Below are positions 1,745 to 18,217 of a DNA stretch of 41,250 bases, piece after piece. The position numbers and the translations under genes were made by a program. The notes beneath the pieces are model-generated. The model was not told the DNA's origin and did not search any database. It saw only the letters and a program-made list of their open reading frames with translations. The stretch covers positions 1 to 41,250 of the forward strand of contig JAURKO010000092.1 in NCBI GenBank assembly GCA_030831705.1, given 5' to 3'. How positions within the stretch are numbered: position 1 is the first letter of the stretch; the number at the start of each line of letters is the position of its first letter. This stretch comes from Daejeonella sp. GTDB lineage: Bacteria; Bacteroidota; Bacteroidia; Sphingobacteriales; Sphingobacteriaceae.

Positions 1745-1911
1745 TTTCACTAGTTTGAGAATATGTTATCACAAAATACCAAACCTTCCAAACTCATTTT
1801 CTCCACCAATAAGCTCAATCAGGAAAATAAATCTAAATTTGTGAGGTCTTCAAATTCAGGAGCTAAAATCAAGATTTATAAAAACTTATATTTTAAAGCG
1901 AACAACCCAGA

Positions 1912-3396
1912 ATGTATCGTAAATTTTTTATATCCCTATTTTTCTTCTTTAGTACCCAGCAAGCTTTAAAAGCAAATTTTGCATTTAATTCTAATTCAAT
2001 AGCAGCACATCAGGCCATATTTGATTTGCGGTTTAATGATGCACGGAAATATATCAGGGATGAGAAATTAAATAATCCACAAAATGGGATTCCGGTTTTG
2101 CTCGAAAATTACCTTGATTATATATTTCTATTTACTTCAGAGAATACAGTCGAATTTGAAAAATTTAAGATCAGGAAGTCAGAAAGGATAGATGCGATCA
2201 AAAAAAATGATAAAAATTCGCCCTATTATCTTTTTGCCCAGGCAGAGATTCACCTTCAATCAGGAATGATAAAAGCTAAATTCGGAGAATACGTTTCATC
2301 CTCTTATGACTTTAAAAAGGCAAAAGACTTGTTAACCGAGAATCATGCAAAGTATAGAGACTTTTTACCCAATCAAAAAAGCCTCGGAATGATAGAAGTG
2401 ATCTTTGGAGCCGTCCCAACAAATTTAAAAGGGATAGCTAGTATTTTAGGGTTCGAGGGAAGTATCACGAAAGGGAATAAGCAATTAGAAAGGTTTAGGC
2501 TTCAGATTGCCAACAGTAAATTTAACTACTATAATGATGAAATTGTTACTTTACTCTGTATAACAAATGTTGATGTAATTCAAGGTAGAAATAGTTACAC
2601 TTACATGGCGCCTCTTTTAAATTCCATGAGTGATAGAAGCCTACTTAAATCTTATTTACAAGGATATACAGCTTTTAGAACAGGGCATGGCGATGCCGCA
2701 ATTAAATTTATAGAAGCTGCTCCGAAAGGTAATCAATACGCCGATTTACCACTCATGAACTATTTGATGGGCAATGCTAAACTTTGCCGAATGGATTCGG
2801 ACGCGAACCAATACCTCAGCAAATTTGCGAATGAGACCTACAGTACAAATTATGTAAAGGATACTTATCTAAGGCTTGCATTCTATTATCTGTTAAGAAA
2901 TAATCTCTCTCAGTATAATTATTATTTGGGATTGGTAAGAACTAAAGGTTCATTGATTATTGAAAAAGACAAACAGGCTTTGAAGGAATCAAATGACCCT
3001 AAACCTAATATAATTCTATTAAAAGCAAGACTTTACTTTGATGGAGGCAATTATAATAATGCATTGGCTCAATTAAAGTCGATTCAATTTGATGATTTTA
3101 AAAACCAGAAGGATAAAATAGAACTTTACTATCGTTTTGGGCGTATCTACGATATGATGAACAAATTTGATGATGCCTTATTGAATTATCAGCGGGTAAT
3201 TAATTTGGGTAAAAATCAAACTTATTATTTTGCAGCATATTCGGCATTAAAGTCTGGCAACATTTATGAACACTTAAAAGACTATAAAAAAGCTGCTGAT
3301 TACTACAATATGGCCATAGAAATGAAAAATCATGAGTATCAAATCGGTATTGGTACGCATGCAAAGGAAGGTTTGAGAAGGCTTAAACAACGATAG
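1912..3396 (+). CDS. Tetratricopeptide-repeat protein with N-terminal signal peptide
   Basis: 494 aa ORF; hydrophobic N-terminus; C-terminal TPR-like segments (YYRFGRIYDMMNKFDDALLNYQRVINLG, ALKSGNIYEHLKDYKKAADYYNMAIEM). Confidence 0.75.
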   Translation: MYRKFFISLFFFFSTQQALKANFAFNSNSIAAHQAIFDLRFNDARKYIRDEKLNNPQNGIPVLLENYLDYIFLFTSENTVEFEKFKIRKSERIDAIKKNDKNSPYYLFAQAEIHLQSGMIKAKFGEYVSSSYDFKKAKDLLTENHAKYRDFLPNQKSLGMIEVIFGAVPTNLKGIASILGFEGSITKGNKQLERFRLQIANSKFNYYNDEIVTLLCITNVDVIQGRNSYTYMAPLLNSMSDRSLLKSYLQGYTAFRTGHGDAAIKFIEAAPKGNQYADLPLMNYLMGNAKLCRMDSDANQYLSKFANETYSTNYVKDTYLRLAFYYLLRNNLSQYNYYLGLVRTKGSLIIEKDKQALKESNDPKPNIILLKARLYFDGGNYNNALAQLKSIQFDDFKNQKDKIELYYRFGRIYDMMNKFDDALLNYQRVINLGKNQTYYFAAYSALKSGNIYEHLKDYKKAADYYNMAIEMKNHEYQIGIGTHAKEGLRRLKQR

Positions 3397-3442
3397 ATTA
3401 ATTTAATTTATTTATCCGACAGCGTATTTTCAATTTAAAAAT

Positions 3443-3450
3443 TATCTTTG
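3443..3450 (+). promoter_or_regulatory. Candidate -7 box (TATCTTTG) for the acyl-module operon
   Basis: Exact match to the Bacteroidota TAnnTTTG -7 consensus 75 nt upstream of the 3526 ATG; no convincing -33 element seen. Confidence 0.4.
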
Positions 3451-3525
3451 ATTTAATACTTTTACAGCTGTCTTTGCCTGCTGGAATTCTTATAGAAGAG
3501 ATCATTATTAAAACTTTAGCTTAAA

Positions 3526-4248
3526 ATGCCGGAAAAAAAGATATTGATTACCGGGGCAAGCAGGGGTTTGGGCCTTGCAATATCTAAAGCGCTATCAGCT
3601 GAGTATACCTTAATCTTACACGCCACACGCAAGGAAAGCTTTACCAATGTTGATCCTAAACACCACCTGCTTTGTGCTGATCTCAGCGATCCCAAAGAAC
3701 TCATTGATTTTTGCAAACGTCTAAAAAAAGAGCACGGAGATACCCTGTACGGGGTAATCAATAATGCAGGCGTAACATTTGACAAATCCCTTATTTATCA
3801 GCCGGAAAATGAAATTGATAAAATGTTACATGTCAATTTAAAAGCTCCGATCATGATCTGTAAGGCTGTATTGAAACAATTCCTTTTGAATAAGCAGGGG
3901 GTTATAATCAACGTAAGTTCATGTGTTGGTGAAACAGGAAATGCTTTTCAGGCAGTTTATTCGGCAACCAAAGCAGGATTAGCAGCCCTGTCAAAATCTC
4001 TTGCCCGCGAAGTTTCTGCATTGAGCGAAGAACATGCCATCAGGATATTAAGCATAGCCCCGGGTTTTATTGAAACAGAGATGACAGATTCGGTACCAGA
4101 AAAATTCAGACAAGAATATTTAAAAGCCATTCCTGCAAACCGTTTCGGTAATGCAAAGGAGGTTGCCGAGGTGGTTGCTTTCCTTATATCGGATAAAGCA
4201 TCATATATTAACGGAACTAACATAAATATAAATGGTGGGATATTATGA
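3526..4248 (+). CDS. SDR family 3-oxoacyl-ACP reductase (FabG-like)
   Basis: TGASRGLG cofactor motif, NNAG, YSATK catalytic motif; first gene of FAS-like cluster. Confidence 0.9.
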   Translation: MPEKKILITGASRGLGLAISKALSAEYTLILHATRKESFTNVDPKHHLLCADLSDPKELIDFCKRLKKEHGDTLYGVINNAGVTFDKSLIYQPENEIDKMLHVNLKAPIMICKAVLKQFLLNKQGVIINVSSCVGETGNAFQAVYSATKAGLAALSKSLAREVSALSEEHAIRILSIAPGFIETEMTDSVPEKFRQEYLKAIPANRFGNAKEVAEVVAFLISDKASYINGTNININGGIL

Positions 4249-4825
4249 TAAAGGCAAGCATGTAGAAAGCCTGTGTTCAATACATCCGAGAGAAATACTT
4301 ATTGCCTACGGTCCCAAAAAACTGCTTGTTGATAAATATCACTGGCACTCCCCAAAAACAGGTATTGTAGCAAGTTATACTCCCAAAGAACATGATGTAG
4401 AAGACCATTTTGGTATTTTCAGAGGAGTAGATCAGATTGAGTCCTTCGTTCAGGCAACTTCTGCATCTTTGTCCATGTTTTTGATCTGTCAGAAACATAG
4501 TTGTGCCCCCGAAGATTTGAGAGAGAAATGTGTACCAAGTTTCATTAGCGTTGGCAACGTGAACTTTATGGCTGCACTTGAAAAGGGCGATACTTATGTT
4601 ATACTAGGAAAAATAACATTTTATAAATTTAAGCAAATGGTTTGCGATGGTCGGATTTATAGATGCCCCCAGGGATTAGACCTTGACGAGTATTTTAAAG
4701 ATTTTAATGAAAATCGCTTACTTAAATATGATCTCTCACCCGATTTTAAACTTATCTCTGATTACTATGATATAACAGGGCGGGAAATTGACATAGAATA
4801 TTTTAGAGCAATAAACAAAAAGTAG
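4232..4825 (+). CDS. Divergent hotdog-fold beta-hydroxyacyl-ACP dehydratase (FabZ-like)
   Basis: Segment DHFGIFRGVDQIESFVQA resembles FabZ GHFPGxPVxPGVLxIEAxAQA, keeping the His and the Glu; context between KR and ACP; start overlaps upstream stop. Confidence 0.7.
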   Translation: MVGYYDKGKHVESLCSIHPREILIAYGPKKLLVDKYHWHSPKTGIVASYTPKEHDVEDHFGIFRGVDQIESFVQATSASLSMFLICQKHSCAPEDLREKCVPSFISVGNVNFMAALEKGDTYVILGKITFYKFKQMVCDGRIYRCPQGLDLDEYFKDFNENRLLKYDLSPDFKLISDYYDITGREIDIEYFRAINKK

Positions 4826-4832
4826 ATTTTAA

Positions 4833-5093
4833 ATGGAAAGACAAGAAATTATAGACGGTTTAATAGAAGTACTTAAAACCGTTCGAATGATAGATCCTGA
4901 AAGATTAGTAGGGGTAACGGAAGAAACCGATTTTTTAGCTGATATGAATGTACCATCATCCCAGATGATTGCTATCGTCGCAAAAGTCGAGCAAAAGTTT
5001 GATATTGAATTTGAAGATGATGATATTGATGATTTAGGCTCAACAGTTAAGGATGTTGTTGATCTCATTTTAAAAGTAAAAGCACGTGGTTAA
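4833..5093 (+). CDS. Acyl carrier protein (non-canonical phosphopantetheine motif)
   Basis: 86 aa acidic helical protein; FLADMNVPSSQMIAIVAKVEQKFDIEF aligns with the ACP FxEDLGADSLDxVELVMALEEEF region. Confidence 0.85.
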   Translation: MERQEIIDGLIEVLKTVRMIDPERLVGVTEETDFLADMNVPSSQMIAIVAKVEQKFDIEFEDDDIDDLGSTVKDVVDLILKVKARG

Positions 5094-6441
5094 AAACACC
5101 GGCAGAAAGGTGGCAGTAGTGGGCATGGGCGGAGCTTTCCCCACCTGCAAGAATCTTTCTGAATTTAGTAGTAAACTATTTGCCAATAAAAGCCTGATCC
5201 GCACATTCGATGATGCAATTGCTTATGAGAAGCAGGTTAGGTCTACAGTAGCAGGTTTTATCACCGAGCCAGAGATGGATCTTGAGGTAATTTGGGATCC
5301 AATGGAAGGCATTTATCCCGAGACCTATATTGATAAATTAAACCGGATTCCGGATGCTAACCTGGCTACCTCAGACGTAGGCAGCATCTGGTCGATGCTT
5401 GCAGCACAAGATGCGATAAAAATGGCCGGGTGGTCAAAAGATCTTGTACAGTCAGAGCAAACGGGTGTTGTGATAGGTTCCGGAGGCTCAGCTAATACTA
5501 TTCTCAGAAACGGATGGCATAATTTTTACGTTTTTGGCAGAAAAACACGGCATTCAGGTGGTCATACCGTCGACAGAACCATGACCTACCGCGAAGCAGC
5601 TAATGTATCGGTTCTTATAAAAAACAAGGGTGTCTGTGAAACCATTAGCTCTGCGTGTGCCACCGGACTCGGTAACATTGGCTACGCCTATCGGCTAATT
5701 AAATATGGGATTCAAGACCGTGCAATCACCGGTGGAGTAGAAAGCACATCACTTGAAACCTTTATTGGTTTTGATGGGATGATGGTTTTAAGCAGGGGCT
5801 TTAGTCCGGAAGAGAGCTCACGCCCATTTGATATGGCAAGAAATGGATTCGTTTGCTCATTTGGTGCAGGCATAGTTGCTCTTGAAGAATATGAACAAGC
5901 CGTATCGCGTGGTGCGGATATCCTGGGTGTAATTGACGAATATTTTAACAATTCTGACGGTGATGGTGATATGTTCTACCCGTCTTTTGAAGGACAGCAA
6001 CGCTTATGGAAAGGGTTACTTTCCGATTCTGATCAAAAACCCGATGTGGTAAAAGTACATGGCACCTCTACCCCATCAGGCGATGCTATTGAACTCTTAA
6101 GCGTAGTTGATGCCTTGGGCGAAGAAGGATATCATATATCAGCCCCAAAATCACAATTCGGACATATGTTGGGTGGTGCCGGTTCGGTAGAATTCATAAC
6201 TGCCTTACTGATGCTTAAAGAGCAAAAAGTTTTGCCCTGTTTAAATTCTCCAAACCTCAACCCTGAACTGGAATCATTTCAGAAAAATCCGGATTGGAAA
6301 GGACCTGTGAAGCCACTAGCTGCTTACCGTCACCTGCTTCCGCAAGAAAGTTTTTCAAAACCAATTAATAATATTGTATGCCTTAATTACGGGTTTGGTG
6401 GTACCAACAGTGCTTTAAAATTGTCAAAATATGATAAATAA
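5086..6441 (+). CDS. Beta-ketoacyl-ACP synthase (KAS I/II type)
   Basis: GTG start overlapping ACP stop; active site SSACATG, VHGTSTPSGD and KSQFGHMLGGAG (Cys-His-His), C-terminal NYGFGGTN. Confidence 0.93.
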   Translation: MVKNTGRKVAVVGMGGAFPTCKNLSEFSSKLFANKSLIRTFDDAIAYEKQVRSTVAGFITEPEMDLEVIWDPMEGIYPETYIDKLNRIPDANLATSDVGSIWSMLAAQDAIKMAGWSKDLVQSEQTGVVIGSGGSANTILRNGWHNFYVFGRKTRHSGGHTVDRTMTYREAANVSVLIKNKGVCETISSACATGLGNIGYAYRLIKYGIQDRAITGGVESTSLETFIGFDGMMVLSRGFSPEESSRPFDMARNGFVCSFGAGIVALEEYEQAVSRGADILGVIDEYFNNSDGDGDMFYPSFEGQQRLWKGLLSDSDQKPDVVKVHGTSTPSGDAIELLSVVDALGEEGYHISAPKSQFGHMLGGAGSVEFITALLMLKEQKVLPCLNSPNLNPELESFQKNPDWKGPVKPLAAYRHLLPQESFSKPINNIVCLNYGFGGTNSALKLSKYDK

Positions 6442-7246
6442 TTCTGGTAAAGTTGCAGCCATTTTTGGGGTCAGGAATGAAGAATCAATAGCTTATAATA
6501 TTGCTCTGAAACTGCATCAGTCGGGTTGTAAAATTGCCTTAAGCTATGTTGAAGATACACGTGATGAAGTGCTGTACCTGCTTGAAAAATTAGGACTTGA
6601 TACCACGCTCGCCATGCAGGTAGATGTTAGGGATGAAGCTCAGATTAACAACTTTCTGAGTGCCGTATATAGTAAGCATGGCCCTATCAATTATATTTTA
6701 CATGGTGTAGCCTATGCCAATACCAAAGTGTTGTGTTCGAACTTTCTCGGTAGTTCGGAGCCCGTACCAGAATATATCAATATCCCTTTCGAAGACCTAA
6801 TGGATTCTTTTAACATCAGCGCTTATTCTCTTTTAAGAATAGCAAGGGTAGCTGAAAGTATGTTGGAAAAAAATGCATCCATATTAACCCTAACATATAA
6901 TGCTGCCAACAGGGTGATTCCTCAATATGGAGGAATGGCGATAAATAAAGCTGCTCTGGATAATATAATGCTTTACTTGGCCAGTTACTTTCGTAACAAG
7001 GAGGTGAGAGTAAATGCAATATCTGCAGGATTGGTAATGACTACCTCTTCGGGGGGAATTAATGGTGTACGGAAAATGCGTAAATTAGGTAAATACATGG
7101 CCCCACTGGGAAATATTGATGCGGGTGATGTGGGCGATGCCGCGCTTTATTATTTCTCTGATCTGTCAAAAAAAGTAAGCGGCAATATTCATTTTGTAGA
7201 TGGTGGATTCAATATTATGGCGGTACCTGTTATAGATGCTGAGTGA
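6431..7246 (+). CDS. FabI-like enoyl-ACP reductase (SDR superfamily)
   Basis: N-terminal GKVAAIFGVRNEESIAYNIA resembles the FabI GVANxxSIAxGIA motif; IPQYGGMAINKAALD gives the FabI Y-x6-K spacing. Confidence 0.85.
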   Translation: MINNSGKVAAIFGVRNEESIAYNIALKLHQSGCKIALSYVEDTRDEVLYLLEKLGLDTTLAMQVDVRDEAQINNFLSAVYSKHGPINYILHGVAYANTKVLCSNFLGSSEPVPEYINIPFEDLMDSFNISAYSLLRIARVAESMLEKNASILTLTYNAANRVIPQYGGMAINKAALDNIMLYLASYFRNKEVRVNAISAGLVMTTSSGGINGVRKMRKLGKYMAPLGNIDAGDVGDAALYYFSDLSKKVSGNIHFVDGGFNIMAVPVIDAE

Positions 7247-7637
7247 TTTAGAAAATTCTGTTAACCAATTAACTTCACAGCGAACATTTGCCGTGGGCAA
7301 TGATCTGGTACATATAGAAAACTTTAAAGTTTTACTGTGTGATCTTTTCAAAAAAAAGGTTTACACCCCTGCTGAAATAGCTTACTGCGAAAGCTTTAGT
7401 GATTCTTTGCAGCGCTATGCATCTACCTGGGCAGCTAAAGAAGCTGTATATAAAGCGATCAAACAACTGGATTCATCACCACTTGGATGGAAAAAAATAG
7501 AAATTACTAGATCCAAAAAAGCAGGGATTCCGAACGTGATATTGCCAGAACATCTCAAAAACTACGAGCTGAGCCTTAGCATCTCACATGACGCTGAGTA
7601 TGCCTGGGCTTTGGCATTAATTAATGCAAAAGTTTAA
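7236..7637 (+). CDS. Holo-ACP synthase-like 4'-phosphopantetheinyl transferase
   Basis: VGNDLVHIENF (AcpS GxDxVxIxR-like), YTPAEIAYC, WAAKEAVYKA motif. Confidence 0.88.
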   Translation: MLSDLENSVNQLTSQRTFAVGNDLVHIENFKVLLCDLFKKKVYTPAEIAYCESFSDSLQRYASTWAAKEAVYKAIKQLDSSPLGWKKIEITRSKKAGIPNVILPEHLKNYELSLSISHDAEYAWALALINAKV

Positions 7638-7642
7638 ATCCC

Positions 7643-8464
7643 TTGACCTCGAATTTTTATACTTCCGACTTTGTTGACCTCCATTATTATAAATATGGAA
7701 CCGGTGAAGAGCACATGCTTTGCTTTCATGGTTTTGGTATGCATGGGAAACAGTTTCGTGAATTAGAGCCAGAATTAGGAAAGAAATATACTTTTTGGGG
7801 ATTCGATTTGTTCTTTCATAAATCCACCAGACTGAAAGACCAAAGTCTGGAAACTATAAAAAAAGGATTGACAAAAAAAGAGTTGGCTAATTTCATTATC
7901 GAATTTTGTAAAGCACAAAACATCCGTCGATTTTCAGTAATTGGTTATTCTATGGGTACCCATTATGCAACAACTATTGCAGAAGAGCTTCCCGAAATGA
8001 TAAATGATTACATCCTAGCGGCACCTTCTTCCATTAAGCCGGGGAAAATTATCCAATTTTTTAGCAGAAATGCTTTCGGCAATAAAATCATAGAGAAGGT
8101 ATCTTTGAGTAAAGATGCAATGCTAAACTTGTTAAAGTTATGCAAGCGTGCTCGTTTTGTAGATGCAGAAGGCTATGCAATTTTATTAAAAGAAATTGAA
8201 ACCCATGAGTTAAGGTTTAACCTGTATGCCTGCTTAACTTATCTGCGTTTTTTAACAACTGATAAATCAAAACTAATTCATGTCTTAAATAATCATTCCA
8301 TTCGCAGTATTTTTATTTTTGGCCAGCGCGATAAATCATATCCCCTGAGTATTGGCAAATCTTTTTTACCAAAAATCAAAAAAGCCGAAATATTGAATTT
8401 AAATGAAGGACATGAAATGATCAATAAAGATTTTGCGAAAGTTTTAGGAGATTTGCTGTCATGA
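7643..8464 (+). CDS. Alpha/beta hydrolase (possible thioesterase/lipase)
   Basis: TTG start; HGFGMHG oxyanion region, nucleophile elbow GYSMG, GQRD Asp, EGHEMI His. Confidence 0.85.
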   Translation: MTSNFYTSDFVDLHYYKYGTGEEHMLCFHGFGMHGKQFRELEPELGKKYTFWGFDLFFHKSTRLKDQSLETIKKGLTKKELANFIIEFCKAQNIRRFSVIGYSMGTHYATTIAEELPEMINDYILAAPSSIKPGKIIQFFSRNAFGNKIIEKVSLSKDAMLNLLKLCKRARFVDAEGYAILLKEIETHELRFNLYACLTYLRFLTTDKSKLIHVLNNHSIRSIFIFGQRDKSYPLSIGKSFLPKIKKAEILNLNEGHEMINKDFAKVLGDLLS

Positions 8465-9117
8465 TAATTAAATCAAAGCCCTTATCGCAATTCTGGTTAA
8501 AATTTATTGGTTACATCCTGTCAATATTTTTCGAAAAAATTTATTTGAATAAGATAGTTATAAGGCCTGTTGAGATTAAATCTAACCATTCCTATATTTT
8601 ATCAATGAATCACTTCAGTTTTGCAGATGGTCCTTTAGGTTTTTATCTGGCCTATCAGTTATTTTTCAAGCAGGGCAAAATGAAACGGTTTTACATTATG
8701 TCTTTGAAAAAGCAAATGGAAAAAAAATGGTGGCTAAGATATTTAGGTTCATTTTCTGTTGATCCGGGAAAGTTATCGGTGAATGAAAGTTTGGCCTATG
8801 CAGCTGAAATATTGAATGAACCCGGTAATTTATTATTATTTTTTCCTCAAGGGAATCTTGAAAGCGTTCATATCAGGACTATACAATGTGAGGACGGAAT
8901 ATCACAAATAGTACCACAAATAACAGGAAAGTGCCAGCTATTATGGAGTAGCAACATCGGTGAATATTTTGAAAGTTTGTGGCCTTCTGTATATTTTAAT
9001 ATGCTCGATTGCGGTACCGCCAAAGATTTTGATTTCGACCAGTTTAAACAAGAGATAAACAAGCATCATAAAGAGTCTCTAAAAAAGAGTGTGAGATTTA
9101 CCGTGGAAGAAGATTAA
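8461..9117 (+). CDS. PlsC-like 1-acylglycerol-3-phosphate-type acyltransferase
   Basis: NHFSFAD (HX4D) and FFPQGNLES (FPEGTRS-like) motifs; ATGA overlap with upstream gene. Confidence 0.82.
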   Translation: MIIKSKPLSQFWLKFIGYILSIFFEKIYLNKIVIRPVEIKSNHSYILSMNHFSFADGPLGFYLAYQLFFKQGKMKRFYIMSLKKQMEKKWWLRYLGSFSVDPGKLSVNESLAYAAEILNEPGNLLLFFPQGNLESVHIRTIQCEDGISQIVPQITGKCQLLWSSNIGEYFESLWPSVYFNMLDCGTAKDFDFDQFKQEINKHHKESLKKSVRFTVEED

Positions 9118-9167
9118 AACATTATTAGGTATAACGTGAACTTGATTTAATATTTAACAACCACATA

Positions 9168-9183
9168 CCTGCCAGCAGGCAGG
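9168..9183. repeat. Small palindrome CCTGCC-AGCA-GGCAGG
   Basis: 6-bp perfect inverted repeat with 4-nt loop in intergenic DNA. Confidence 0.6.
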
Positions 9184-9247
9184 GAAACATAGCATATTAT
9201 CGCTACCAACCTCCATTTTAGACACAGATAGCCTTGAAACTTTGTTT

Positions 9248-9307
9248 CAATCTATGTAATTTACAATCTATGTTTCCTTTAAAAAAATAATATAATTCAA
9301 TCTATGT
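9248..9307. repeat. Three direct copies of CAATCTATGT
   Basis: Exact copies at 9248-9257, 9264-9273 and 9298-9307; a TTGAAAC-TTT-GTTTCAA hairpin (9234-9250) overlaps the first. Confidence 0.7.
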
Positions 9308-9408
9308 GGTTAGATATTTATATATCGAACTTAGGTAAAGTTTTGACTTTGTTCCATTAAATAAAATCTATAATAATCCATGTTACGTATCTTCAATAAA
9401 AAAATAAA

Positions 9409-10059
9409 ATGAAAAATTACTTTAACATCATACCCGCATTTGTTCTTGTGCTGGTATTGTTTTCCTGTGAAGCAATCTCTCAGAAAAAATCAGATGTCAG
9501 AAAAGTGAAACTCACAGCACCTCAGGGTAAAGCAATCGCTGCATTTGCGGAAGGCTGCTTCTGGTGTTCTGAGCATATCTTTGAGGCAGTGGTGGGCGTA
9601 GATTCGGCCATTTCAGGTTATGCAGGTGGAAATGTACCTAATCCAACCTATGATCTTGTTAATACTGAAACTACCGGCCATGCAGAAACTGTTTTAGTTT
9701 ATTATAACCCTAAAGTAATCTCCTATGGAGAACTTTGTAAGGTATTCTTTGCTTCACACGACCCAACTACGCCTAATCAGCAGGGGCCCGACAGAGGTTC
9801 ATCGTACCGTTCTATACTTTTTTATAATGGTGAAGTAGAAAAAGCTGCCGCACAACAGGCAGTAAAAGATGCCACTAACTCCGGCAGATTCAAAAAATCA
9901 ATTGTTACTGAGTTGAAGCCCATGACCGAATTCTATCGTGCAGAGGGCTATCATCAGGATTATATCGAACACAACCCAAATCAGGGCTACGTAAGGGCGG
10001 TTTCAATTCCAAGGTTTCAATTGTTTAAGAAGACGTATAAGGGAAAGCTTAAGTTGTAA
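9409..10059 (+). CDS. msrA: Peptide-methionine (S)-S-oxide reductase with lipoprotein-like signal
   Basis: GCFWCSEHIFEAVVGVDSAISGYAGG signature, PTYDLVNTETTGHAE, RAEGYHQDYIEHNP; N-terminal LVLFSC lipobox-like. Confidence 0.95.
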   Translation: MKNYFNIIPAFVLVLVLFSCEAISQKKSDVRKVKLTAPQGKAIAAFAEGCFWCSEHIFEAVVGVDSAISGYAGGNVPNPTYDLVNTETTGHAETVLVYYNPKVISYGELCKVFFASHDPTTPNQQGPDRGSSYRSILFYNGEVEKAAAQQAVKDATNSGRFKKSIVTELKPMTEFYRAEGYHQDYIEHNPNQGYVRAVSIPRFQLFKKTYKGKLKL

Positions 10060-10087
10060 GTAATAAGTTATAGGTTGTAAGTTTTTA
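10051..10087 (+). repeat. AAGTTGTAAGTAATAAGTTATAGGTTGTAAGTTTTTA element at msrA 3' end
   Basis: Near-identical reverse-complement copy at 18999-19053; supplies the msrA stop codon. Confidence 0.75.
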
Positions 10088-10327
10088 TTCATTCTCCATT
10101 GGAATAATTTAACTCAAAACTTAAATTGTTTTTATTCGATACCTTTTGATTTTGGGGAAAACTTTTGTTCTTGAATTACAATCCCATTTGCTAATTATCT
10201 CATTATCAAATTTACTAATTCAAACTTTTGTAAACGCGACTGACGAATTTATCTTGCATGATGACTATGTAAATTCGTAAGTCTCCACATTTTCAAATTT
10301 GCTAATTGATTTCTCTACCTTAGCTAA

Positions 10328-11830: not shown

Positions 11831-12907
11831 ATGCAAGCAATTTTAGGTGTCATTTTCCATTTAATAGGCGGGGCTGCATCTGGCAGTTTTTACCTTCCAT
11901 TCAAGAGAGTCAAGGGCTGGTCATGGGAAAGCTACTGGATAATCGGTGGACTATTTTCCTGGCTTATTGTACCTCCACTGGCAGCCTACCTCACCATTCC
12001 AGCATTTTCTGAGATTATAGCCAATACCGATGGCTCCATTCTAAAGGTTACTTTCATCATGGGCTTGTTATGGGGAATTGGTGGTCTAACCTACGGACTT
12101 GGAGTTCGTTACCTAGGTATGTCTCTTGGAAACTCCGTTGTTTTAGGCTTCTGCTCCGCCCTAGGTTCATTACTCCCGCCCGTGTTTTACGATTTATATC
12201 CGCAAGCCGGAAAAGTCAGTTTTACACAAATGCTCAACGATGATGGTGGCCGTATCGTTCTTCTTGGAGTGCTGGTTTGTCTTTTTGGGATTTTCTTGTG
12301 TGGCCGCGCCGGAATGCTGAAGGAGCGTGAATTAAGCGAAGAGACCAAAAAAGAAAGTATTCAGGAGTTCAATTTAGTGAAGGGTTTGATTGTAGCGATC
12401 ATTTCAGGAGTATTAAGCGCCTGTTTCAATTTCGGGATTGAAGCCGGAAAACCAATGGCAGATGCTGCAAATGCCCTGTGGAAAATCGCTAATCCAACAG
12501 AAACAACTGAGTTCCTTTTTCAAAATAATGTAACCTATGTCGTACTTTTATGGGGTGGATTAGCAACCAACCTGATCTGGTGTATGATCCTGAATACCCG
12601 AAACAAAACATTTGGCGATTATTCGAATAAAAAGACTCCACTATTGAAAAATTATATATTTTCGGCAATAGCAGGTACTACCTGGTTTTTGCAATTCTTT
12701 TTCTATGGTATGGGCGAAAGCAAGCTGGGGAACGGAGCAAGCTCCTGGATCCTGCACATGGCCTTCATAATCCTGATTGCAAATATGTGGGGGCTGTTGC
12801 TAAAAGAATGGACAGCAGTAAGCAAAAAAACATTTTCAACCTTTACTATGGGGATTATAACCATCATTCTTTCAGTTTTGCTGGTAGGTTATGGCAATTC
12901 CATTTAA
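11831..12907 (+). CDS. rhaT: L-rhamnose/proton symporter RhaT
   Basis: 358 aa multi-TM; GAASGSFYLPFKRVKGWSWESYWIIGG; rhamnose operon context. Confidence 0.93.
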   Translation: MQAILGVIFHLIGGAASGSFYLPFKRVKGWSWESYWIIGGLFSWLIVPPLAAYLTIPAFSEIIANTDGSILKVTFIMGLLWGIGGLTYGLGVRYLGMSLGNSVVLGFCSALGSLLPPVFYDLYPQAGKVSFTQMLNDDGGRIVLLGVLVCLFGIFLCGRAGMLKERELSEETKKESIQEFNLVKGLIVAIISGVLSACFNFGIEAGKPMADAANALWKIANPTETTEFLFQNNVTYVVLLWGGLATNLIWCMILNTRNKTFGDYSNKKTPLLKNYIFSAIAGTTWFLQFFFYGMGESKLGNGASSWILHMAFIILIANMWGLLLKEWTAVSKKTFSTFTMGIITIILSVLLVGYGNSI

Positions 12908-12923
12908 ATAAAACCAATTCCAT

Positions 12924-15038
12924 ATGACACAATCAAATTTTAAACATGTAAGCTACCTGTGGGATGATGCTACAGCTGCTAAACTTGCAGGAGATGAAGT
13001 AGCATTGTTAATTTATAGGTCTAATATTTTAGGCGCCGACCTAAGATTAACCAATTACGGCGGCGGAAATACTTCCTGCAAAGTGATGGCTAAAGATCCC
13101 CTAACTGGGATAGAAACTGAGATCATGTGGATCAAAGGATCAGGTGGGGATATTGGAACTTTAAAGAAAAGCGGACTCGCAGCACTTTATAATGATCGTT
13201 TATGTAATCTGAAAAATATCTACCGCGGCCTTGAGCATGAAGATGAAATGGTGGAATTGTTTAACCATTGTATTTATGATCTGAATTCAAAAGCTCCATC
13301 CATCGATACACCACTTCATGGTTTTCTTCCCTTCAAACATATTGATCACCTACATCCTGATGCGGCAATTGCAATTGCTGCAGCAAAAGATGGAAAAAAA
13401 ATCACCGCAGAACTTTTTGACAATAAAATTGGCTGGGTTGACTGGAGAAAGCCAGGTTTTGAACTGGGATTGGAACTAAAGGCCTGCCTGGATTCTAACC
13501 CCGGAATAAAAGGAATTATGTTAGGTTCTCATGGCTTGTTCACTTGGGGTGATACAGCTTATGAATCTTATATCAACACCCTCGAAGTGGTTGAAAAATG
13601 CGCTGAATTTATTGAGGAAAGCGTCAGAAAAAATGGAAGCGTATTTGCCGGAAAGAAAATAAATGGACTTCCGGAACAGCAAAGAAGGGAACAGGCAGCG
13701 AAAATTGCTCCTGTTTTACGCGGACTTTGTTCGTCAGAACGCTCCATGATTGGTCACTTCACTGATGATCCAAGGGTTCTGGAATTTATCAATTCTAATG
13801 ATTTGAACCGACTTGCCCCATTGGGCACGAGCTGCCCTGATCACTTTTTAAGAACGAAAATTAGTCCGCTGATACTTAATCTTGAGCCTGATGCGGATCT
13901 TAGCAATCCCAAAGAACTAATCACAAATCTTCAGCCACTTTTTGAAGCTTACCGAAAAATGTATGCAGAGTACTACAATAGCTGCAAACATCCAAACTCG
14001 CCTGCCATAAGGGATTCTAATCCGGTAATTATTCTTTACCCGGGAGTAGGACTATTCTCTTTCTCTAAGGATAAACAAACTGCCAGAGTTGCTGCAGAAT
14101 TTTATACCAATGCAATTAATGTAATGCGCGGAGCAGAGGCAATTTCTGAATACACTTCACTTCCAAGACAGGAAGCATTTAATATCGAATACTGGTTACT
14201 TGAAGAAGCAAAACTTCAAAGGATGCCAAAACCAAAATCATTGAGTGGCAAAATTGCATTGGTGACAGGAAGTGCAGGTGGTATTGGTAAAGCAATTTCA
14301 AGAAAGTTTGTTGAAGAAGGCGCTGTAGTTGTTTTGAATGACCTCGATCAGGACCGCTTGGAAAGTGCAGGATCCCAATTCCTCCAAGAATTTGGCCGAG
14401 ATAGCTATACAACTGTACAACTGAATGTTACCGAAGACGCAGATATAAAAAATGCTTTTGCACAGGCTGCCCTTAGCTTTGGTGGAATAGATATTGTAGT
14501 AAATTGTGCCGGTTTGTCTATTTCAAAACCGATTGAAGAACATACCGATAAGGACTGGGATCTACTTTATGATGTGCTGGTGAAAGGTCAGTTTAAAATT
14601 ACTCAGGAAGCCGTAAATACCATGAGAAAGCAGAATATGGGAGGTGATGTTTTAAATATTGTGAGCAAAAATGCCCTTGTTTCTGGTCCGAATAATGCCG
14701 GCTACGGCTCTGCAAAAGCTGCTCAATTACACCTGAGCCGCTTGAACGCTGCTGAACTTGGTCCGGATAAAATCCGCGTCAATGTGGTTAATCCTGATGC
14801 AGTGATCGCCGACAGCAAAATCTGGGAAGGTGCATGGGCTGAAGGAAGGGCTAAAGCTTATGGAGTTACCGTTGCCGAACTGCCTGCATATTATTCAAAA
14901 CGTACCCTGCTGAATGAAACTATTTTACCTGAGGATATTGCTAATGCCTGCTACGTTTTTGTAGGTGGCTTGTTAAAAAAATCAACCGGAAATGTCTTGA
15001 ATGTGGATGGTGGTGTGGCAATGGCTTTTGTGAGATAA
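12924..15038 (+). CDS. Bifunctional rhamnulose-1-phosphate aldolase / short-chain dehydrogenase
   Basis: N-terminal class II aldolase-like domain (NYGGGNTSCK, GSHGLFTWGD) fused to SDR (VTGSAGGIGKAI, YGSAKAA). Confidence 0.93.
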   Translation: MTQSNFKHVSYLWDDATAAKLAGDEVALLIYRSNILGADLRLTNYGGGNTSCKVMAKDPLTGIETEIMWIKGSGGDIGTLKKSGLAALYNDRLCNLKNIYRGLEHEDEMVELFNHCIYDLNSKAPSIDTPLHGFLPFKHIDHLHPDAAIAIAAAKDGKKITAELFDNKIGWVDWRKPGFELGLELKACLDSNPGIKGIMLGSHGLFTWGDTAYESYINTLEVVEKCAEFIEESVRKNGSVFAGKKINGLPEQQRREQAAKIAPVLRGLCSSERSMIGHFTDDPRVLEFINSNDLNRLAPLGTSCPDHFLRTKISPLILNLEPDADLSNPKELITNLQPLFEAYRKMYAEYYNSCKHPNSPAIRDSNPVIILYPGVGLFSFSKDKQTARVAAEFYTNAINVMRGAEAISEYTSLPRQEAFNIEYWLLEEAKLQRMPKPKSLSGKIALVTGSAGGIGKAISRKFVEEGAVVVLNDLDQDRLESAGSQFLQEFGRDSYTTVQLNVTEDADIKNAFAQAALSFGGIDIVVNCAGLSISKPIEEHTDKDWDLLYDVLVKGQFKITQEAVNTMRKQNMGGDVLNIVSKNALVSGPNNAGYGSAKAAQLHLSRLNAAELGPDKIRVNVVNPDAVIADSKIWEGAWAEGRAKAYGVTVAELPAYYSKRTLLNETILPEDIANACYVFVGGLLKKSTGNVLNVDGGVAMAFVR

Positions 15039-15060
15039 GAGCATAAATAAATAAGAAATT

Positions 15061-16335
15061 ATGAAGCTTGACGACAGTAAAATTGCTCAGCATAATCAAA
15101 AATTAGGAAAAATTCACAATTCAAAATTTGAGTTTTTAAAAACACAAATTAATGATTGTGAGTCTATTATATCTAAATTAATCGACTTCCAGATTGCAAT
15201 TCCCAGCTGGGCTTTGGGAAATGGAGGAACCCGTTTCGGACGCTTTGCCGGAGGTGGTGAACCCCGAAATCTGGAAGAAAAGATTGAAGATGTTGGTTTA
15301 ATGAACAAACTAAACCGATCAGGCAATGCAATTTCTCTTCACATTCCCTGGGATATTCCTAAAGATTATCAGGCAATCCGCGATCTGGCAAAGGATCATG
15401 GATTACGCTTTGATGCGATGAATTCTAATACTTTCCAAGACCAAAAAGGACAGCAGGAAAGTTATAAATATGGTTCACTTCAGCATGTTAATCCGGCTGT
15501 TCGAAAGCAAGCAATAGACCATAATATTGAGGTGATCAAACATGGTATTGAACTGGGATCAAAATCATTAACGGTATGGCTAGCTGATGGTTCCTGTTTC
15601 CCTGGACAACTAAATTTCAGAACTGCATTTCAGAATACACTAGAGAGTTTGAAGGAAATTTATGCTGCATTACCACCCGACTGGAAAATGTTTGTGGAAT
15701 ATAAAGCCTATGAGCCTAATTTCTATTCAACCACAGTTGGCGACTGGGGTCAATCTTTATTATATGCCAGTAAATTAGGGCCAAAAGCTTTTACACTTGT
15801 AGATTTAGGCCATCACTTACCTAATGCGAATATCGAACAGATCGTTTCACTGCTTTTGATGGAAGGTAAACTTGGGGGCTTTCACTTTAACGATTCCAAA
15901 TACGGCGATGACGACCTAACTGCGGGCAGTATCAAGCCTTATCAGCTATTTCTGATATTTAATGAACTGATTGAAGGTATGGATGATCGGAAAATGAACC
16001 ATGCTACAGATCTGGGCTGGATGATCGATGCTTCGCATAATGTCAAAGATCCGCTTGAAGATCTCCTACAATCTGTAGAGGCGATCATGATAGCCTATAC
16101 CCAGGCATTGATCGTAGACCGAAAATCACTTAGGGAAGCACAGTTGAAAAACGATGTGGCCCGTGCTCAGGAAATTTTGCAGGATAGTTTCCGTACCGAT
16201 GTGAGACCATTGGTTGCTGAAGCTCGCCTTCGTTCAGGTGGAGCGTTAAACCCAATAGGTTTATTCCGAGAATTAAATATTCGGACAGAACTAATCAGAG
16301 AAAGAGGTATGGAGACTGCTGCTACTGGACTATAA
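15061..16335 (+). CDS. rhaI: L-rhamnose isomerase (RhaI-type TIM barrel)
   Basis: Sugar isomerase with WALGNGGTRFGRF, VEYKAYEPNFY, GGFHFNDSKYGDDD; operon context. Confidence 0.88.
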   Translation: MKLDDSKIAQHNQKLGKIHNSKFEFLKTQINDCESIISKLIDFQIAIPSWALGNGGTRFGRFAGGGEPRNLEEKIEDVGLMNKLNRSGNAISLHIPWDIPKDYQAIRDLAKDHGLRFDAMNSNTFQDQKGQQESYKYGSLQHVNPAVRKQAIDHNIEVIKHGIELGSKSLTVWLADGSCFPGQLNFRTAFQNTLESLKEIYAALPPDWKMFVEYKAYEPNFYSTTVGDWGQSLLYASKLGPKAFTLVDLGHHLPNANIEQIVSLLLMEGKLGGFHFNDSKYGDDDLTAGSIKPYQLFLIFNELIEGMDDRKMNHATDLGWMIDASHNVKDPLEDLLQSVEAIMIAYTQALIVDRKSLREAQLKNDVARAQEILQDSFRTDVRPLVAEARLRSGGALNPIGLFRELNIRTELIRERGMETAATGL

Positions 16336-16364
16336 TCAATTTAATCAGAACAAAATATAAAATC

Positions 16365-17696
16365 ATGCAGCTTCCGGTAATAGCCGTATTTGATATCGGG
16401 AAAACGAACAAAAAGCTGATTCTCTTTGATGAACAGTTGAAAATCGTTTTTGAACATGCTGATCAGTTTGCCGAAATAAAAGATGAAGATGGGTTTCCTT
16501 GCGATGATCTAGAGAAACTAAACAATTTTGTATTCGAATCACTTCAAAAGGTTCTTTCCAAGCCGGAATTTGAAATTAAGGGTCTGAATTTCACGGCTTA
16601 CGGAGCGAGTTTTGTCTACATTGATGAATCCGGCAAACCTCTTAGTCCATTATACAATTATCTAAAACCTTATCCGGAAACTTTACTGGATCAGTTTTAT
16701 TCTTGTTATGGTGGGCAGACTGAGTTTGCAAAAGAAACTGCATCTCCGGTACTTGGAAGCCTGAATTCGGGTATGCAGCTCTACCGCATCAAACAAGAAC
16801 GTCATGAATTACTGAACCGGATAAAATACGCATTACATTTACCACAATATCTGAGTTTCCTCATCAGCGGTAAAAGCTGTTCAGACATTACCAGCATCGG
16901 TTGCCATACCAATCTCTGGGATTTCCGCAAAAACAATTACCATCACTGGCTGGAGAATGAGAACTTGATTGATAAACTAGCTCCAATTTTACCTTCCGAT
17001 ACTGTAATTAGAACAAGTTTTGAAGGACAAAGTTTTGATGTAGGAATCGGATTGCACGACAGCTCATCGGCCTTGATTCCTTATCTAGTCAATTTTAAAG
17101 AACCCTTCTTGCTAATTTCGACTGGTACCTGGTGCATCAGTTTAAATCCATTCAATGCGAGTCCGCTAAGTACTTTTGAACTTGAATCAGACTGCCTCTG
17201 CTACCTGCACTATGAAGGTAAACCAGTTAAGGCTTCCCGTCTTTTTGCCGGAAATGAGCATGAACAGGAACTAAACAGAATTTCAAAATTCTTTTCAGAG
17301 CCTAGAACAAAATATGAGCAGATGAACTTTAACACTGCCTTCCGGAATTACTTAGACCAGGAAGAGGTTTACTCAGGAAATGATCTTGCATCTTATGCAT
17401 CAGATCAAGAAGCGTATCACCGACTGATGATCCACATCATTAAACAGCAAAAAATATCTAGTGAACTTGTGATAAACGGTTCGGACGTGAAACGAATTTT
17501 TGTAGATGGAGGATTCAGTAAAAACTCAATCTACATGAACCTTTTATCCATTGTTTTTTCTGAAATGGAGGTTTATGCTGCTTCCATGGCACAGTCGACA
17601 GCAATGGGTGCTGCATTAGCAATTCATCATAGTTTTGGTACAAAGTCTGTCCCAACCAACCTGATCGAAATGAAATTTTATTCAGCAAATAAATAA
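16365..17696 (+). CDS. rhaB: FGGY-family carbohydrate kinase (rhamnulokinase)
   Basis: VFDIGKTNKK phosphate-binding, IFVDGGFSKN, STGTW; operon context. Confidence 0.85.
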   Translation: MQLPVIAVFDIGKTNKKLILFDEQLKIVFEHADQFAEIKDEDGFPCDDLEKLNNFVFESLQKVLSKPEFEIKGLNFTAYGASFVYIDESGKPLSPLYNYLKPYPETLLDQFYSCYGGQTEFAKETASPVLGSLNSGMQLYRIKQERHELLNRIKYALHLPQYLSFLISGKSCSDITSIGCHTNLWDFRKNNYHHWLENENLIDKLAPILPSDTVIRTSFEGQSFDVGIGLHDSSSALIPYLVNFKEPFLLISTGTWCISLNPFNASPLSTFELESDCLCYLHYEGKPVKASRLFAGNEHEQELNRISKFFSEPRTKYEQMNFNTAFRNYLDQEEVYSGNDLASYASDQEAYHRLMIHIIKQQKISSELVINGSDVKRIFVDGGFSKNSIYMNLLSIVFSEMEVYAASMAQSTAMGAALAIHHSFGTKSVPTNLIEMKFYSANK

Positions 17697-17698
17697 CC

Positions 17699-17864
17699 AT
17701 GAAACCATCATGATTTTTCAATAACACAGTGGAATGAATAAAATCATGATAGCCCGCCCTAACAAGCCGTTCGGACGAGCTTAATCACCTTTGAAAAACA
17801 AAAATATACAGATGAAACCTGCATGAGCTTACCGCTCACAAACCGGAATGAATAAGCTCATGCA
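17699..17864. repeat. Tandem pair of covarying hairpins between rhamnulokinase gene and rhaM
   Basis: ATCATGATTTT(17707-17717)/AAAATCATGAT(17740-17750) and TGCATGAGCTTA(17820-17831)/TAAGCTCATGCA(17853-17864); shared flanks ATGAAACC and GGAATGAA. Confidence 0.85.
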
Positions 17865-17899
17865 AGCTTCATAACAATTAAAAAACAAATTATATTCCA

Positions 17900-18217
17900 A
17901 TGAAAAATATTGTTTCCTTTAAAATGAAACTAAAGCCTGGCTTTAAGGAAGAGTATAAACGCCGTCACGACCTGATTTGGCCTGAGCTTAGCGCGCTGTT
18001 ATCAAATTCAGGAATCAGTAATTATTCCATTTTCCTGGATGAGGAAACCAATATACTATTTGCCGTTCAAACCCTCTCAGGTAACAATAGCTCACAGGAT
18101 CTCAGAAAAAATGAAATCGTTAAAAAATGGTGGGCCTATATGGCTGATATTATGGATACTAATGATGATAATTCGCCAGTAAGTAAGCCATTGGATATCG
18201 TTTTTCATATGGAGTAA
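17900..18217 (+). CDS. rhaM: L-rhamnose mutarotase
   Basis: 105 aa; KPGFKEEYKRRHDLIWPEL, NYSIFLDEETNILFA, WWAYMADIMDTNDDNSP. Confidence 0.95.
   Translation: MKNIVSFKMKLKPGFKEEYKRRHDLIWPELSALLSNSGISNYSIFLDEETNILFAVQTLSGNNSSQDLRKNEIVKKWWAYMADIMDTNDDNSPVSKPLDIVFHME

Follow-up and report, generated by a model that had tools for sequence, protein, structure and literature searches.

A conserved private fatty acid synthase cassette with a PlsC-like acyltransferase in Sphingobacteriaceae, a candidate envelope-lipid pathway

A reductive acyl-elongation cassette in a Daejeonella-like genome

The 41,250 bases analyzed here (the window) make up an entire contig (C44) from a Daejeonella-like member of the Sphingobacteriaceae, whose genome spans 2.46 Mb and is 87% complete. 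Between positions 3526 and 9117, it carries a cassette of eight open reading frames (ORFs), all on the + strand, that overlap or nearly abut, with intergenic spacing of -17 to +7 bases. They encode a predicted type II fatty acid synthase (FAS-II) with its own acyl carrier protein (ACP), together with a hydrolase and an acyltransferase. An earlier note on this DNA had assigned these eight activities from the sequence, and each was recovered at the same position, by Pfam and NCBIfam models or, for the dehydratase and the acyltransferase, by fold. Pfam names six of the eight proteins; the dehydratase has no relevant match, and the acyltransferase lies slightly below the Pfam cut-off.

The first gene encodes a 3-ketoacyl-ACP reductase (KR; 3526-4248), a FabG-like short-chain dehydrogenase/reductase (SDR; PF13561/PF00106) whose triad of S132, Y145, and K149 is invariant in 76 sequences. 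It overlaps the gene for a divergent hotdog protein (DH; 4232-4825), the AlphaFold2 model of which has a pLDDT of 92 and finds FabZ structures as its top Foldseek matches (E 2e-8). A sequence profile search of the PDB also points weakly to FabZ (E 0.0065), while comparison with FabA gave no significant match. Residues H59, D67, and E70 are conserved in 80/80 ungapped sequences, though the His and Glu lie about 3 residues closer together than they do in FabZ. The hotdog fold and the catalytic His and Glu together identify the DH as a predicted FabZ-type 3-hydroxyacyl-ACP dehydratase. The private ACP (4833-5093; PF00550) carries its attachment serine, Ser42, in a PSS/PST motif, and this serine is invariant in 81 sequences.

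The ketosynthase (KS; 5086-6441, GTG start; PF00109/PF02801) has active-site residues C191, H325, K355, and H360, invariant in 78 sequences. Its best PDB profile matches are KAS I/FabB enzymes, FabB is also nearest in NCBIfam, and identity to the best plasmid-borne matches of FabB type is about 34%. The next protein is a predicted FabI-type enoyl-ACP reductase (ER; 6431-7246; PF13561), an SDR for which FabI models are the best in NCBIfam, at up to 185 bits and under their equivalog cut-offs, and in which the Y-x(9)-Y-x(6)-K residues Y156, Y166, and K173 are invariant in 75 sequences. An AcpS-type phosphopantetheinyl transferase (PPTase; 7236-7637; PF01648, TIGR00556) follows, with D23, K68, and E69 invariant in 76 sequences. 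The remaining two genes encode an esterase/thioesterase-like alpha/beta hydrolase (7643-8464, TTG start; PF00561), whose triad of S103, D230, and H257 is invariant in 63 sequences, and a PlsC-like protein of the lysophospholipid acyltransferase (LPLAT) type (8461-9117). The model of the latter (pLDDT 79.5) best matches the PlsC structure 5kym in Foldseek (E 4.9e-5), and its HxxxxD motif (H51, D56) is invariant in 68 sequences; a comparison of its profile with ApeD gave no significant match. On fold and motif, we consider it a predicted O-acyltransferase.

The PPTase, ACP, KS, KR, DH, and ER are thus predicted to cover one full reductive elongation cycle with catalytic residues intact, and the steps from PPTase to ER are established FAS-II chemistry of the named families. 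Across all eight proteins, the catalytic residues are invariant in 63 to 81 homologues, apart from a single gapped DH row. Gene order is kept in nearly all of about 80 loci, where the genes mostly overlap or nearly abut, and pairwise dN/dS of the cassette genes against four close relatives is 0.02-0.15. Because order is conserved, catalytic residues are invariant, and dN/dS is this low, the cassette is not a chance arrangement; judged from its sequence, the core is complete, order conserved, and under purifying selection. As the earlier note had claimed, the eight genes include neither a malonyl transferase (FabD) nor a KAS III. The Bacteroidetes -33/-7 promoter pattern had three matches in the window, which is chance level, and none lies near the cassette.

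Separation from housekeeping synthesis and from known clusters

Housekeeping counterparts of several cassette proteins are encoded elsewhere in the same genome (G000). AcpP, FabF, and Rnc are grouped as an operon on contig C31, a second FabI, to which the cassette ER is 31% identical, lies on contig C1, and a PF00550 search of this incomplete genome found two ACPs, one of them that of the cassette. In a tree of 37 KS sequences, which included ApeO and two ApeO-like KSs of locus L163, the module KSs are monophyletic (100/100 support). They fall outside the FabF clade, toward FabB, on a long branch (2.48), and group apart from ApeO and from both L163 proteins. The deeper placement is uncertain because the tree program warns of long-branch joins. 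With a separate AcpP-FabF operon, a second FabI, and a KS outside the FabF clade, we rejected the cassette as the housekeeping FAS-II. The earlier note's description of a self-contained module apart from housekeeping synthesis therefore holds; the outcome that it had named as fatal, a KS among housekeeping FabF/FabB in a genome with no separate set, was not what we found.

The KSs nearest the module KS in the tree belong to two other FAS-II-like clusters. One (L168:734-5588) comprises a KS, KASIII, DH, ACP, SDR, and clear FeeM GNAT (104.8 bits), and the other (L170:7526-12007) comprises a PPTase, ACP, KS, DH, SDR, and KASIII-like gene.

Like the cassette, the aryl polyene (APE) cluster of Escherichia coli CFT073 contains a type II KS, a KR, a hotdog DH, a private ACP, and a lysophospholipid-type acyltransferase, and its product is anchored in the outer membrane (PMC8253772). 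It differs in having three KSs, one of them a chain-length factor, along with two ACPs, an acyl-ACP synthetase, and LolA/transporter genes, with no ER or PPTase (PMC8253772), whereas the cassette has one KS, one ACP, its own PPTase, and an ER. The gene table of the CFT073 cluster lists no enoyl reductase, in keeping with the contrast to aryl polyene clusters that the earlier note had drawn (PMC8253772). The flexirubin/dialkylresorcinol cluster of Chitinophaga pinensis is likewise a FAS-II-like system of Bacteroidota with KS, KR, DH, and acyltransferase genes, but it has a tyrosine ammonia-lyase, a CoA ligase, five KSs, and DarAB, none of which is found in the cassette (PMC3992019). Membership in the aryl polyene class was rejected on the missing KS/chain-length-factor pair, ligase, and ammonia-lyase and on the presence of an ER; membership in the flexirubin class was rejected on the missing tyrosine ammonia-lyase, the single KS, and a KR score of 174.7 bits against the FlxB equivalog model, for which the cut-off is 340 bits.

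Two other systems offer partial parallels. FabA/FabB-type synthesis shares with the cassette a KS nearest KAS I/FabB, and sister loci described below carry a FabA-like gene, but the cassette has a private ACP, PPTase, and acyltransferase attached and a KS of only about 34% identity. FeeM-type N-acyl amino acid synthases also involve an ACP-bound chain that is passed to an acyltransferase; the cassette was rejected as a member of such a cluster, since it has a PlsC-fold enzyme in place of a GNAT, and FeeM-like proteins occur only in sister loci, below cut-off. No paper describing the cassette was found in a literature search that left out many journals. Because the defining genes of APE and flexirubin clusters differ and no literature match was found, we regard the cassette as a variant of the specialized FAS-II-like lipid clusters. 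Within this limited coverage, the earlier note's suggestion of an undescribed lipid system is a reasonable one.

Distribution, a separable TPR partner, and sister loci

Searches for the cassette identified 80 loci, mainly in Mucilaginibacter, Pedobacter, and Daejeonella; Zobellia, Taibaiella, and other metagenome-assembled genomes contribute a few. The carriers are scattered among soil and freshwater Bacteroidota. The KS family occurs in 5/395 sampled Bacteroidia genomes (about 1%) and in 3/396 genomes of a phylum-wide draw, the source genome being included in both counts, and in 50/251 Sphingobacteriaceae genomes (KS+; the other 201 are KS-). Flanking genes vary from locus to locus, and a search for further conserved neighbors of the cassette returned only subclade-specific genes, besides FabA in sister loci.

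Comparison with a congener (G002) by blastn delimits the cassette as a unit. Window positions 1810-3402 and 9349-10092 match positions 6930-8518 and 8583-9325 of the congener's locus L151, so that an indel at 3403-9348 (strand not applicable) holds all eight genes. At this orthologous site, the ComM-TPR-MsrA region is intact and the gene for a tetratricopeptide repeat (TPR) protein is kept, with the cassette absent as an exact indel. The congener carries its own diverged cassette elsewhere, 65% identical in DNA. Since the site lacks the cassette and a diverged copy lies elsewhere, the eight-gene block appears to be gained or lost as a unit.

The TPR protein encoded upstream of the cassette (1912-3396, + strand, 494 amino acids) is of a type, here called A (at least 46% identity), that co-occurs with the KS and is separable from the eight-gene block. 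Across the same 251 genomes, with one TPR match per genome, type A is present in 42/50 KS+ and 0/201 KS- genomes (Fisher p 5e-40, a value that ignores shared descent). Type B (45% identity or less) forms a separate clade and occurs mainly in KS- genomes, with some examples in KS+ ones. In several KS+ genomes, TPR-A lies on another contig or tens of kilobases from the cassette. Its N terminus resembles a signal peptide, as judged by eye. TPR-A is therefore probably a ninth, genetically separable component, and probably exported. In six Mucilaginibacter-type loci (L098, L099, L100, L101, L104, and L108), a member of the LpxR outer-membrane family is encoded on the same strand as TPR-A, starting from a position upstream of it and separated by about 40 to 100 bases (Pfam-confirmed in L098, E 1.5e-59); because this is limited to six related loci, it counts only as a hint. 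As to other neighbors, type B (L136, L139, and L142) is flanked on one side by a KAS III-like gene and on the other by a conserved gene pair (247-365 amino acids) that by eye resembles Nif3 and zinc-ribbon proteins, and type A adjoins the same 250-amino-acid gene in L059, L107, and L125.

In six distant loci (L109, L112, L113, L117, L120, and L124), KR and DH are separated by a FabA-like gene. A homologous GNAT gene precedes KR in L120, L124, L117, and L112, and L109 has a weak GNAT match in the same place; the best match of the L120 protein is FeeM (E 2e-4, below the curated cut-off). A TPR-LuxR (TPR-GerE) regulator lies upstream in L120 and has homologues in L124, L117, and L109. In L113, from Zobellia, a different alpha/beta hydrolase precedes KR. 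The module hydrolase and acyltransferase were not found in the searched flanks of these six loci. No FabA was found in 151 Sphingobacteriaceae genomes, in a search that had no positive-control genome. Because distant Bacteroidota keep the core with FabA, and mostly with a GNAT N-acyltransferase, the six-gene core would be an interchangeable acyl-chain maker.

Elsewhere in the window, translations of positions 11831-18217 resemble a rhamnose-use operon, with a RhaT-like transporter and bifunctional aldolase/dehydrogenase-, isomerase-, kinase-, and mutarotase-like ORFs.

Acyl acceptor and competing explanations

The acyltransferase tracks the core closely. Its module subfamily (315 bits or more) is present in 50/50 KS+ and in 2/201 KS- genomes. 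The hydrolase is missing beside some cassettes, which makes it an accessory; of the two recipients of the product that the earlier note had offered, hydrolase or acyltransferase, it is the less well supported. In one genome (G516), the cassette is split, with the core about 48 kb from an acyltransferase-TPR pair and both kept, so that here the acyltransferase has moved with TPR-A. The two KS- genomes hold module-subfamily hydrolase-acyltransferase pairs standing alone (L187:9457-10927 and L188:8562-10047), which may be what remains of a former cassette or may reflect a separate role for the pair.

A lower tier of acyltransferases (165-233 bits) links this enzyme to carotenoid loci. Among those examined, members often adjoin a hydrolase and a second LPLAT together with a glycosyltransferase, CruF, CrtW, and CrtD; others (L184 and L186) have the hydrolase with fewer or none of the carotenoid-locus genes. 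The carotenoid-locus hydrolase-LPLAT pair of Sphingobacteriaceae combines a related acyltransferase with the same gene pairing as the cassette, but in these loci it is accompanied by a glycosyltransferase and carotenoid genes, and a private FAS core is absent. These relatives are the main clue to the acyl acceptor, and only a hint. Beyond the indel and the TPR partner, they are, with the hydrolase-less loci and the FabA/GNAT variants, what the earlier note had overlooked.

We propose, with confidence that is about evenly balanced, that a dedicated acyl chain is built by the private FAS-II and attached to an envelope lipid by O-acylation. The cassette PPTase would charge the private ACP, and housekeeping FabD would load it with malonyl, since the cassette has no FabD or KAS III. 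The FabB-side KS would then extend a primer, with the ER driving the chain to saturation, and the PlsC-fold acyltransferase would move the finished chain from ACP to a hydroxyl of an envelope lipid; the most plausible acceptor would be a glycolipid, for instance a glycosylated carotenoid. The hydrolase may be an optional accessory with a part in editing or in turning over esters, and TPR-A, which is probably exported, may serve the envelope end of the pathway.

Several observations count against this proposal. The acceptor is deduced solely from neighbors and relatives of the acyltransferase, and the chemistry of the cassette is predicted from its genes. No sampled cassette lies near carotenoid genes within the flanks examined; only the related pair, with its LPLAT1, does. 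The hydrolase-acyltransferase pair may draw on ordinary acyl-ACP, given that it occurs in two genomes where the FAS core is absent. At least one relative, L116, has no ER in its locus, so a fully saturated chain need not be the rule, and the TPR association could come partly from shared descent.

A more specific version of the acceptor is that the chain forms the ester group of a carotenoid glycoside of the flexixanthin/saproxanthin type, with the cassette pair replacing the carotenoid-locus pair of KS- Mucilaginibacter-type genomes. The module acyltransferase and the carotenoid-locus LPLAT1 group together against LPLAT2, and the two acyltransferase forms exclude one another, the lower tier occurring in 44/251 and the module form in 50/251 genomes with an overlap of 0 (hypergeometric p 2e-5, uncorrected for phylogeny). 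In 12 KS+ genomes that were fetched, moreover, the LPLAT2 locus keeps carotenoid genes (CrtD and/or glycosyltransferase/CruF) without the hydrolase-LPLAT1 pair. Yet some KS- genomes also lack the pair (L189 and L191), stand-alone pairs exist (L186, L187, and L188), and 14/50 KS+ genomes have no second LPLAT at the cut-off. Gene linkage does not support this assignment, as no cassette lies near carotenoid genes in the flanks examined, and we consider it doubtful overall. Another reading, an auxiliary or back-up FAS-II with no dedicated product, whose chains would go into the usual acylation of phospholipid or lipid A under special conditions such as cold, membrane stress, or FabI inhibitors, would account for the full cycle with its own FabI and PlsC-fold acyltransferase, the patchy distribution, and the LpxR-family gene beside TPR-A in one clade. 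We think it unlikely, for the private ACP, own PPTase, and KS on a long separate branch suggest specialization, the cassette lacks FabH and FabD, and sister loci carry a GNAT and no phospholipid enzyme.

The sister loci raise the idea that the product of the core is an acyl signal or N-acyl amino acid, of which the window version would be an O-acyl variant. Four of them have the homologous GNAT just before KR, with FeeM the best match in L120, and the TPR-GerE regulator or its homologues are found in L120, L124, L117, and L109; near the window cassette there is neither, the terminal enzyme has a PlsC fold, and the GNAT assignment is itself weak, which leaves this improbable. Hardly credible is a polyene pigment cluster of the aryl polyene or flexirubin branch that has gained an ER. 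A KR/DH/ACP/KS/LPLAT composition is held in common and the KR weakly matches FlxB, but the cassette lacks a chain-length factor, aryl starter enzyme, second ACP, LolA, and exporter, and its KS lies away from ApeO and the ApeO-like KSs of L163.

Somewhat more tentatively than for the dedicated chain, we suggest that the six-gene cartridge (KR, DH, ACP, KS, ER, and PPTase) is transferable between Bacteroidota lineages and coupled to differing terminal acyltransferases, either the PlsC-like enzyme together with the hydrolase and a TPR-A that is probably exported, or a GNAT accompanied by FabA, and that in the window lineage it makes a class of envelope lipid not reported before. The envelope lipids of Bacteroidota, which are major bacteria of soil and fresh water, are poorly charted. 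From a second FAS-II that is conserved and has an ACP, PPTase, and acyltransferase of its own, a specific novel lipid is predicted in cultured Mucilaginibacter, Pedobacter, and Daejeonella lutea. If true, the exchange of terminal enzymes around a shared core would illustrate specialized lipid pathways evolving by recombining a chain builder with new acceptor enzymes.

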